Below the pieces are notes generated by a model. It was not told where the DNA came from and searched no databases. It worked only from the letters and a program-made list of their open reading frames with translations. A stretch of DNA of 64,000 nucleotides from Nereocystis luetkeana (lineage: Eukaryota > Sar > Phaeophyceae > Laminariales > Laminariaceae). The translations under genes and the position numbers were made by a program. Where the stretch lies: contig JARUPZ010000019.1 of NCBI GenBank assembly GCA_031213475.1, forward strand, positions 2,282,940-2,346,939. The letters are read 5' to 3'. Below, piece after piece: positions 4,190 through 64,000 of this stretch (its first letter is position 1; every line of letters begins with the position of its first letter).

Positions 4190-4475
4190 TATCATAATAT
4201 GTTGGTACCTGGTACGTGTTATGACGTACTACGCGGCTTGATATATATCTATATATACTATATGGAACAAGCACGGTATGGGAAAATGGGATATGTTGGT
4301 GGTATGGTGTATGGGAATATGGGAAAATCACCGCATGTGGTATGGTATGTATTGACGGTATGGTACGGGGAAAACACAGTATATGGAATGGTACGTTTGC
4401 GGTATGGTACCATGGTACGATGTCGTGGATGTATTAAATGGCTAAATTTGCCTGGTGGTATGGTATGTTGCTGTA
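4190..4475. repeat. Low-complexity GGTATGG-rich stretch
   Basis: GGTATGG and GGGAATATGGGAAAAT variants repeat without fixed period on one strand, with a TATATA core near 4240. Confidence 0.5.
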
Positions 4476-4563
4476 TCTAAGGTCTCGAATACGTCGTACG
4501 AATATCATCTGAAACGAGCTTATATATCGGCCATTGGAAAGTGTTCGAAAATATAAGCCCTGC

Positions 4564-4598
4564 GGACAGACAGACAGACAGACAGACAGACAGACAGA
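4564..4598. repeat. (GACA)n microsatellite
   Basis: Eight uninterrupted CAGA units. Confidence 0.85.
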
Positions 4599-4834
4599 TT
4601 TACATTTACCAAAACAGAGACTCAGTTCTACAAACTGAGAATAAGTCGACACCATAGAAGTGTTTACATAATCGTATCAACAAGGGGAAGACGTCTGTGA
4701 CACTTGTTTTGTTCTGTGAAACATGCAAGATTGTTATATTCAAAACCTGCCAAAGTACTAGAACAATGTATTGAGCTTTTCGAGTTTTTTAACAACTCTA
4801 TAGGGACAAATTTACTTTTCACGGGAATAATGTT

Positions 4835-5082
4835 TGCACTTTGGTTTTTGAGAGTTGCAAAATGAAATTTCGCACGGTTGTGCGTCAAGACAAGATGAAA
4901 AAAGTGGCCACTGGTCTTTTATAGTTCTTTTTTTCCGTGAATGAGGGAGATTGAAGTTGCGGAAAAAAACAGAAAAATGTATCTCAAGAACAAAAACAAA
5001 TGCAGTGGCCAGTCGTTTCATCTTGTCATGACGCACAACCATGCCAAGTTTCGTTTTCCAACTCTCAAAAAAACAAAGTGCC
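4835..5082. mobile_element. Hairpin MITE with arms of about 75 bp
   Basis: The left arm (GCACTTTGGTTTTTGAGAG ... GTTGTGCGTCAAGACAAGAT ... GTGGCCACTG) is the inverted complement of the right arm (CAGTGGCCAGTCG ... ATCTTGTCATGACGCACAAC ... CTCTCAAAAAAACAAAGTGC). The spacer is about 90 bp. Confidence 0.7.
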
Positions 5083-5244
5083 AAAAGTGCGAAGCTGTTA
5101 AGCCTCGGCTGTCGCTGGAACCAGTCCGTAGTATTTTTCATTTTTCTCTCTTTGTCTCTCTCTAACCCAAGTTTCAGTGTTTTCATCTCGTGTATCCTGT
5201 CTCTAATATCTGTTACTGATCAGTCTGTGCGCTGAGCTTACCAG

Positions 5245-5368
5245 GCCCGCTGCTGCAGGAGTTCTGGCTGGGCAGCAACCCACGCCTTACATGGCCGGTG
5301 CTCCAGTGCAGCAGGTGGAGTGCACAAGAATAGGCTGTGCTACCCTCCCCCTTGTCCGAGGTTTTTAG
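5245..5368 (+). CDS. Paralogous exon or exon relic of the GQQP protein
   Basis: It follows an acceptor-like CTTACCAG (ending 5244) and reads PAAAGVLAGQQPTP, then MAGAPVQQVE, to TAG at 5366-5368. The core aligns with the exon at 5538-5687 without gaps through GQQP and GAP.Q.V. Either a tandem exon duplication in one gene (joined by a donor near 5330) or a relic of a duplicated gene. Unknown function. Confidence 0.25.
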
Positions 5369-60824: not shown

Positions 60825-61630
60825 AGACCTATGCCAATCGAAACGCAAAGTTCAAAAGTTTTTTTCAAACACATTGCGCTCAAAGAACAGCCGAAAAATT
60901 CCTCGTGCCGCCGCTGTGGGAAAGAAGAGAAACAATGTTTGATTTTTGATTTTTCTCCCCCCAACGGTTGCAGGCGGCGCAATTTGTTTTTCTGCTTGCA
61001 AATTGTCAACACGCTGATAGAAATCAGCTCGTGCGACGATCGACGCTCGATCTCAACATAGACGCAGCCCACGGCCAACCCGTTCGGTGTCCGGCAAGGC
61101 CAACGAATATAGATGGCAGCCTCGAAGATATCGGGCTGGTCCATGGTCTAGGGGGCGAGAGCTTGCCGGCGGCGTCCGACGGTATCCTCCCAAACATTCG
61201 ATACGGATGGAGAAGTTTTGTCTTCTGTTTTGTGGACACCAGCGGCCAATTGTTTTTTTATCATACGCCTCGTCAGCTCCCGCCACATGGCACCGGCCAT
61301 GGTGTGAAAACGGTGACCCTAGGGTGGGTCGGAGCCCCTAACGAGCGCACTCCGTTCATAATTCATGACGCAGTCGGTGGTTTTGTCGATCGATGTCTGT
61401 CAAGGACTCGGAATCTCGCCGCTTCGAACCAAAGATCGGCCTGAGTTTTTCTCAAGCCGATGTTGGCTCAACATCGGCCCCAGATTTGCTTTTTTCGGGC
61501 TTTTCCAAAAGTTTGGAACTTTTTTTTTTTCTAAACGTGCCCATAGGAAGCGTGTTCTAAAAAATTCTGGAGGGTATCTTTGAAATTCAAACTTTTTATT
61601 GATACTTCGCTTTCCCATTGGCATAGGTCT
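60825..61630. mobile_element. Family C TIR element, best-kept copy
   Basis: An 806-bp element; AGACCTATGCCAAT opens it and the exact complement ATTGGCATAGGTCT closes it. Beyond 14 bp the ends stay similar for about 20 more. No transposase frame; the frames inside are short and differ between copies. Non-autonomous DNA element of unknown superfamily. Confidence 0.75.
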
Positions 61631-61754
61631 AACATGCAAAAGTACCTCATCAACAGATATTAGTTTACCTTCACTCGTACCATTAGACGATATGTAGTCA
61701 TAATACTTCCAACGTACTAGGTATATACGTTCCAGGTATCAACGTACGTATACG

Positions 61755-61888
61755 ATAATAATAATAATAATAATAATAATAATAATAATAATAATAATAA
61801 TAATAATAATAATAATAATAATAATAATAATAATAATAATAATAATAATAATAATAATAATAATAATAATAATAATAATAATAATAAT
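61755..61888. repeat. (AAT)n microsatellite, about 44 units
   Basis: An unbroken ATA/TAA/AAT run. Poly-Ile and poly-Leu frames are artefacts. Confidence 0.95.
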
Positions 61889-62301
61889 GTTACTGTCAGG
61901 TCCCCTGTACCAACATTCCACACATACATGTGGAAACCCCTTGGTTCGACGTCACCGGAGCCCAAGGCGTCCGTCCCCTCAAAAGGGACTCGCGTCCCCC
62001 GACAGGGCTAAAACACCCCGACGGGCTTTTGTCCTTGTCTCTTTATCCGCTTAGGGCGTAGTGTCCCCTACTATACCGCGGACCACCATGTCGACGCACT
62101 GAGACGGCGGGCGGGTGTGCTCGTTCACACCCCCCTCGTCACTCTTTTTGTCTGTCTCGTCCTGTTGTCCGAGCTACACAGCTTGCCCATCATTTTGCTG
62201 TTTACACGAGTTGCCCTCGGCGCGTAACGCCGAAGGCCGTGGTGCTCGTAACACCCGCGCAGCATATAGAAGCTTAGCCCCTACTAAGATTGGCGTCGAC
62301 G

Positions 62302-62501
62302 TAATAATAATAATAATAATAATAATAATAATAATAATAATAATAATAATAATAATAATAATAATAATAATAATAATAATAATAATAATAATAATAATAA
62401 TAATAATAATAATAATAATAATAATAATAATAATAATAATAATAATAATAATAATAATAATAATAATAATAATAATAATAATAATAATAATAATAATAAT
62501 A
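62302..62501. repeat. (AAT)n microsatellite, about 66 units
   Basis: An unbroken AAT run, the longest simple repeat in the window. It is 413 bp beyond the first AAT run. Confidence 0.95.
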
Positions 62502-64000
62502 GACTCGACCGCGGTGGTACTATTATTATCAGTACTCAACGGTACTACAGCAGTGTGTATGATTTGTGTGTATGATTTCTCCAGGACGCCGTACGTACAG
62601 AAAAAAAAGCAGTATGCGTGGTCGGTGAGTGCCTGCTGCAGCGTTGTATGATACCTGGTACATACTCTTGCGATCTTGATTGTCATTTTCCGACGACCTC
62701 GCGCCTGTGTTTCATTTCCCCACAACAAGTTATAAAGAGGCTCGGCTCCTGCGATGCTTTCGCAGCCGGTCGGTCGGTGGTGTCTTATACCTGGTACGTG
62801 TTTTTACGCGCGGAGCAACTTCAAGAAAGACCATACCAGTAGTACTATTATTATGACAAGACAGAAGAAGATCACTGGGGATGCTGCCATGGATCTCCAG
62901 TGGTGGTGTGGATCCTATTGTGAGTGATAGAGGTGTGTTGCCCCTGCACGGGGGGTGTGCTCAGTCCGCGCTACGACTCCTACTCGTTCTAAGCGAAGCG
63001 TTCCTCCGAAGCAGCATGATAAGTACACCAGGCATGCCAGGTACCGGTATGATGGAGCAGGCCTGCAGCGTCGACCTGGCTTTGGAGGCGATTGCAGCAG
63101 TCATTGCAGTTAGTTGTTGCACTCAGTCAGTCCTGCAGCGCGTCCGTCGGTGGCCGGTAGGCAAGACGCCCACACAATAACGCGAGCGTACGAGTAGTCT
63201 AATCTTATAGCAGTATTTGTCAAGTCTGCATACGCAGGCGAGACGAAACCAGCCAACCATAGTATCAGCAAGCGCGTGATTTAGATGATCGTACTCGTAC
63301 GGCGCGAGAGCAACATGAATCAAATGCGATGTTGATTTTTGAAATAATCATACCAGGTACCTGGTAAGCCTTCTTCCTTGTCATCACGCTCATATATGCT
63401 CACCGGGAAACGACAGGATTTCCTGATCCTCGTTGATCCGTTGACTTAGCACGTGCGAAGCAGCGCCGGGACTAGCCGTTGCGCTGCTGGCCTTAAACAT
63501 GTTCTACGGGTCCCAACAGGAACGATACTTGGCTTGAGAGACCACTCCACTCTGAAGATTGAGCGCGACTCAACTATACCACACTGCTGTGTCCGCAGGT
63601 CAGGTGTGCAGTCTGCAGGTGTTTCGAAGGAGTTCCATTTTTCCACGAGGATTCTGGTTCGGGATATATTTTAGAGAGATTAGGCTCTCGCGCCTCATGT
63701 GTCGTGCACGTGTCGGTGTGTCAACACCTGACGAAGCCAAGAGAGAGAAAGAGAGAGAGGTGAACGGACTGAGTATGTAGTCGACATGACTGCGTTAAAC
63801 TTGATTTTTCGTCTCGCGGCGCTTGCTAGGCTGCAGTTGCTGGGTCTCCCGGTGCGCGCTTCGATGACTCGTACATGTATCCAGCACCCAAAGTTAAGTG
63901 CCGTACTCCTCTTTGCTGCGGCACGTCAATTCGTGAACATGTCACTCGCCTCATGATCTCTTGGTACTCGTACGTCGCCGCTTTGGCAATATTTACGTCC
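62502..64000. other. No gene seen
   Basis: Four TACCWGGTA sites (62652, 62788, 63351, 63358) and short frames only. Confidence 0.4.

Follow-up and report, generated by a model that had tools for sequence, protein, structure and literature searches.

The TACCWGGTA word of the Nereocystis luetkeana genome as a probable excision scar of a TA-duplicating DNA transposon

The genome of the brown alga Nereocystis luetkeana carries the 9-mer TACCWGGTA (W, A or T) in very large numbers, and the question raised here is what this word represents. It was noticed in a stretch of 64,000 nucleotides (assembly GCA_031213475.1, contig JARUPZ010000019.1, positions 2,282,940 to 2,346,939 of the forward strand), the whole of which is hereafter called the window. 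A first examination, made from the letters of the window alone (the sequence-only reading), offered three options: a protein-binding site, a preferred insertion site and an excision scar. Since the word turned out to be material inserted at a TA dinucleotide, the third option is favoured and the other two appear unlikely. We consider it probable, at about 0.8, that TACCWGGTA was left behind on excision of a TA-duplicating cut-and-paste DNA transposon that works like members of the Tc1/mariner/pogo group. Of the two halves of cut-and-paste transposition, excision is the one that tends to leave few traces to count; should these scars be recognisable by their sequence alone, one could measure throughout a genome how many excisions took place, how old they are (from decay) and which targets were chosen.

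In the window TACCWGGTA occurs 26 times (17 copies of TACCTGGTA and nine of TACCAGGTA), against 0.25 expected from 100 dinucleotide shuffles (maximum 3) and 0.47 expected from a third-order Markov model of the masked sequence. The excess is about 55- to 100-fold, and the word tops the excess ranking of all 9-mers with at least eight counts in the masked window. The genome in which words were counted, of which the window is a part, comprises 465 Mb in 1,987 contigs; it holds 182,395 copies against 1,744 of the reversed word, corresponding to about 105-fold enrichment and about one copy per 2.5 kb. The overlapping tandem dimer TACCWGGTACCWGGTA was found 15,917 times, against two for its control. 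The sequence-only reading had put the over-representation at about 50-fold, which is surpassed, and had rightly noted tandem overlapping copies; all of its 25 listed positions were exact, one copy, at 8128, having been overlooked. The genome-wide count that it had suggested lies far above expectation. Inspection of the sites also confirmed that most copies in the window have different flanks, and because the flanks differ and the copies lie in different repeat families, they do not come from a single repeat consensus. A scan of viral contigs for the dimer matched nine contigs and was judged uninformative, and a search of the window for RNA families and tRNAs found none.

The evidence for insertion at TA comes from paralogous repeats. 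In alignments of paralogues, repeats with and without the word were observed to differ by a 7-bp insertion, TA in one copy and TA-CCWGG-TA in the other, so that a few bases plus one TA had been added at a pre-existing TA, as in an excision footprint. The sample comprised 276 kb (20 stretches of 10 kb, the window and the four dimer-matched loci L010-L013) and contained 90 arrays of the word, for 13 of which a paralogue covered the site. In seven of these 13, the 9-mer or 16-mer is replaced in some copy by exactly two bases, which are TA in six; of the remaining six, two had the identical word in a tandem duplication and four an unclear alternative. All other TA-N5-TA words, treated with the same script, served as the control under two rules. 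Of 14 testable TACCWGGTA sites, five had exactly TA in the paralogue, compared with 2 of 188 control sites (Fisher's test, 1.5e-5), and any two bases were present at 6/14 and 2/188, respectively (9e-7); counted by alignment, exactly TA was found in 32 of 72 for TACCWGGTA and in 14 of 2,343 for the controls. The positive cases belong to four repeat families, namely the window and its paralogue L013, the L018 array, the TTACGGGGG repeat (L029 and L032) and L022. Within the L018 array, the number of units at one and the same TA varies between copies, being zero, one or two.

The word itself has the form of a footprint, being the nearly self-complementary CC-W-GG with a central mismatch position. 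In 264 kb its central base was A or T in 86 cases and C or G in five, as predicted if two CCAGG overhangs are paired with an A:A mismatch. Among one-base variants, transitions numbered 65 against 15.5 expected and transversions 46 against 30.8, and transitions exceeded expectation at each of the four half-site positions. This predominance of transitions is the pattern of unselected, neutral-like decay, and from the counts of exact and one-off words the mean divergence of the scars would be near 9%. Words of the form TACCWGG-N-TA (338 kb) have N=G in 11 of 12 cases, nine of these 11 with a central A, from which the end of the parent element would be CCAGGG. The flanks were analysed for 80 arrays after each scar was collapsed to TA, both strands being counted, so that symmetry is built in. 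A is rare directly after TA (7% vs 19%), and the seventh base is A or T in 85% vs 52%. This bias fits the target preference of a transposase, and could also belong to a longer motif.

The latter possibility leads to an alternative, in which a dimeric sequence-specific protein binds the word and selection has spread it through regulatory DNA. The palindrome with its strict core, the overlapping tandem sites, the non-random flanks including the A/T preference at the seventh base, and the lack of copies in two recognised coding pieces (described below) are all in agreement with a binding site. Such a site would not lead one to expect paralogous repeats with TA alone, or the like behaviour of other TA-flanked words, and the bias of variants to transitions at every half-site position, together with a copy number very high for a regulatory site, also argues against it. 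We therefore regard a binding site as unlikely.

Under the scar interpretation, the following order of events is proposed. The ends of the element would start with 5'-CCAGG(G). Upon excision the transposase would leave the terminal bases as 3' overhangs next to each copy of TA, and the two overhangs would pair as C:G, C:G, A:A mismatch, G:C and G:C. End joining would close the break, and fixation of the mismatch to A or T would produce TA-CC(A/T)GG-TA. Occasional retention of one extra base of the element would give rise to the six-base variant, while re-insertion and excision at the TA of an old scar would yield tandem units. The overhang length, the repair step, the parent element and its CCAGGG ends are the parts of this scheme that we infer.

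Tandem units may also be explained by a 7-bp minisatellite, CCWGGTA, arising and growing through replication slippage. Dimers as well as trimers exist, and 60% of the dimer pairs consist of units of equal type. Single words, however, far outnumber overlapping dimers (182,395 and 15,917), and single units stand at a TA where other copies of the repeat carry none. Moreover, A-type and T-type units are mixed in 40% of the dimers, 4,522 being A then T (TACCAGGTACCTGGTA) and 1,856 T then A (TACCTGGTACCAGGTA); slippage by itself is thus insufficient, and the minisatellite is a very unlikely source of the word. That TACCAGGTACCTGGTA is 2.4 times as common as TACCTGGTACCAGGTA among the genome-wide dimers is recorded as a separate observation, for which we offer no explanation. 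Extra units were found 12 times, against 2.3 expected from neighbouring bases (264 kb, both strands).

The excision scar also gains from the behaviour of other words flanked by TA, which fall into further classes. A census of gaps of 2-25 bases, for which no word was preselected, covered 366 loci, alignment shifts and relatedness between loci being still included in its counts. Where a gap could be placed as TA-X-TA, CCWGG accounted for 9 of 11 seven-base gaps, CWG for 7 of 9 five-base gaps and TTAA for 5 of 7 six-base gaps. For TACWGTA, exactly TA was found in the paralogue at 5/19 sites (five loci), against 4/153 for other TA-N3-TA words. For TATTAATA (TA-TTAA-TA) the corresponding values were 3/6, all three in the L018 array, and 3/254; genome-wide this word has 93,112 copies and its reversed form 10,689, and eight copies lie in the window (at 3593, 11824, 11854, 13061, 17391, 35461, 42544 and 43600). 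A further pair, TACGAGTA/TACTCGTA, is enriched about 7-fold (61 vs 8.8 expected in 264 kb). Of its 17 sites in the window (3074, 3942 and 9043 among them), six lie within 150 bp of TACCWGGTA, against 1.7 expected. Minos leaves the footprint TA-CGAG/CTCG-TA, and we take TACGAGTA/TACTCGTA to resemble it; this is only a lead, since no empty copy was found at the three testable sites. An apparent CTCG inverted repeat at L043 was a subterminal repeat and no element end. As a side observation, TACAGCAGTA/TACTGCTGTA is 27-fold enriched (29 vs 1.1 in 264 kb) and may be another scar class.

DNA transposons flanked by TA are present in the genome. The DDE_1 transposase profile of the group (PF03184) gave 28 matches, none of them tied to the CCWGG class. 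Two pogo-like elements lie at ~235-2422 of L044 and ~168-2399 of L047; each measures about 2.2 kb, carries the DDE_1 domain, is flanked by a TA duplication and has CAGTACCGGCC as its inverted ends. At L050, TG precedes one end. The TA-CAGTACCGGCC ends of these elements fit the TACWGTA class. In addition, TTACGGGGGACC forms the ends of a ~100-bp repeat (many copies in L021, others in L018, L024 and L032). TA precedes 38 of 42 of these ends, and comparison with empty copies showed insertion of the repeat at TA; the TATTAATA scars may stem from it.

Several observations weigh against the excision scar, the first group of which concerns the parent element. A search of ~340 kb yielded no element bounded by TA-CCAGGG inverted ends, and no parent was recognised among the 100 TACCAGGG matches listed (first 3.4 Mb of contig C1), some of which were followed up. 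TACCAGGG is not in excess, with 18,890 copies against 45,874 of its reversed control. The PF13358 (DDE_3) profile gave no match. The candidate ends CAGGGTCGACGAGACG and CAGGGCCACGCYTATGAC were rejected, as the sequence upstream of them is largely conserved and they hence sit within repeats. Another rejected candidate, an element at ~5457-6453 of L019 with ends TA-CCAGGGATGCG and TA-CCAGGCAGGGATGCG, looked like the parent and turned out to be hAT-like: of 31 pairs from its family among the matches listed, 28 show an 8-bp duplication (at least 7/8 bases) and none is flanked by TA on both sides. Three other searches were without yield: the PF01359 (Transposase_1) profile had no match, its control being silent too and the search therefore uninformative; a scan of 128 pairs for larger insertions gave no CCWGG element among the matches listed; and a scan for TACCWGG inverted ends gave seven pairs at no less than 11/16, none convincing. 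The two best of these pairs, both in L018, are inverted repeat copies that match on either side of the site, and the remaining pairs are weak.

The hAT-like element of L019 is about 1 kb long and has inverted ends CAGGGATGCGNATTTCC, the end pattern matching at 186 places in the genome. Among 100 of these ends listed, six have TACCWGGTA within the preceding 17 bases, which by an eye count seems above chance; perhaps the two share a preference for TATA-rich sites. This count, and the insertion of the L019 element within a TACCTGGTAC, would be in agreement with a word that mobile elements prefer as a target rather than leave behind as a scar. The word is absent, however, from 94 of the 100 ends listed, and it is itself the inserted material, missing from the empty copies, so that a preferred target is the least probable of the explanations considered. 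The scar also differs from an 8-bp hAT target duplication, its empty copy differing by a single TA.

The failure to find a parent despite 182,395 words is the point in favour of a different alternative, in which a TA-specific enzyme adds no more than a short stretch of the end, by abortive or templated end-tagging, and the full element was never present at most sites. Six-base variants and a central A or T fit ordinary overhang repair instead, and we know of no enzyme that performs such end-tagging; this explanation appears distinctly improbable. At less than even odds, the history might be that of a TA-targeting lineage with five-base staggered ends, which made well over 180,000 fixed excisions and is now rare or extinct, or of a scar-making enzyme without a resident element.

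The second group of opposing observations concerns the scars. The main class of five bases exceeds the known footprint length of about 2-4 bases, the footprints of the pogo element Passer being reported as 0-4 bp (PMC9976928). The independence of the empty-site cases is limited, as they come from only four repeat families; the empty copies of L022 carry TG, CG or GG and not TA, and no two-base copy was found at 8 of the 14 testable TACCWGGTA sites. The dimer pairs are 60% equal, 28% AT and 12% TA, where 50/25/25 would be expected, and random re-insertion would account for only a fifth of the dimers present. Other systems frequently leave irregular footprints, with exactly two target copies after only 8 of 94 rice excisions (PMC4423477) and non-canonical footprints for Hsmar2 (PMC3770610), whereas the count made here took in a single regular word and variants close to it.

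If a TA-targeting lineage with five-base staggered ends left the scars, the genome would represent a countable archive of cut-and-paste transposition, holding a CCWGG scar roughly every 2.5 kb in addition to ~93,000 TATTAATA. Since a 7-bp insertion shifts the reading frame, the mutational load would be large. A caution also follows: a palindromic word may be strongly over-represented in a eukaryotic genome without acting as a regulatory motif.

In the window, all sites were assigned by exact match to TACCWGGTA, with no strand given. Single TA-CCTGG-TA footprints are located at 4206..4214, 9723..9731, 10282..10290, 11844..11852, 14310..14318, 18326..18334, 24263..24271, 24580..24588, 32910..32918, 39733..39741, 40930..40938, 42307..42315, 62652..62660 and 62788..62796, that at 40930 being followed by CCCTGGTA, the six-base variant as a second unit. 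Single TA-CCAGG-TA footprints are located at 8128..8136 (the overlooked copy, followed by CCAGTA as a possible decayed second unit), 8446..8454, 39362..39370 (with a clean 7-bp gap in the paralogue L013, where the empty site is TA), 42290..42298, 43581..43589 (followed by CCCTGGTG, a possible decayed second unit) and 58928..58936. Double footprints were found at 24060..24075 (TA-CCTGG-TA-CCTGG-TA), 51662..51677 (TA-CCAGG-TA-CCAGG-TA) and 63351..63366 (TA-CCAGG-TA-CCTGG-TA), the central base differing between the units of the last.

Searches identified two coding pieces, exon 1 of a decarboxylase (~23758-23919, plus strand, residues 31-84 of the open reading frame) and a GH81 piece (~52658-52912, minus strand), and none of the 26 sites falls inside either. 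The absence from exons claimed by the sequence-only reading thus holds for these two pieces, to which the check was confined; selection against a 7-bp frameshift may account for it. Of its placement of four sites in decarboxylase intron 1, what could be confirmed is that the sites at 24060, 24067, 24263 and 24580 all lie downstream of exon 1. Apart from these features, the window contains a dispersed repeat whose copies are about 80-93% similar (36018-36352 with 61195-61529, also 18673-18848 and 3232-3404), a second dispersed family (14708-14990, 28734-29016, 48661, 49488, 51115 and 31210) and tandem repeats at 292-903 and 2169-3027 with periods of 156 and 222 bases.

Among the matches listed for footprint catalogues and for brown-algal transposons and excision, no such scar is described in titles or abstract openings, which falls short of showing that the scars are undescribed. 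The word itself stands in 217 papers, and its occurrences in the 20 listed look incidental. In the accessible text of an Ectocarpus transposon paper (PMC12477816) the terms "footprint" and "excision" do not occur, and that of PMC12592211 contains nothing on such scars. With pogo/Tigger-like systems, the genome shares DDE_1 elements with TA-CAGTACCGGCC ends, but the ends of these elements do not begin with CCAGG. Tc1/mariner transposases nick the non-transferred strand a few bases within the element, and their footprints consist of TA pairs flanking a central A/T mismatch that is resolved to A or T. Sleeping Beauty, according to PMC8151067, duplicates its TA target and leaves a CAG footprint from 3' overhangs and end joining; TA duplication and, probably, the few terminal bases left at the site would be common to both systems. 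The scars described here differ in having five bases instead of three, a parent that was not found and 182,395 words. As five bases lie outside the known range, we describe the element as working like the Tc1/mariner/pogo group, to which it may belong as a new member whose cuts are more widely staggered. What is new with respect to these systems is the five-base scar class and its load of about one per 2.5 kb.

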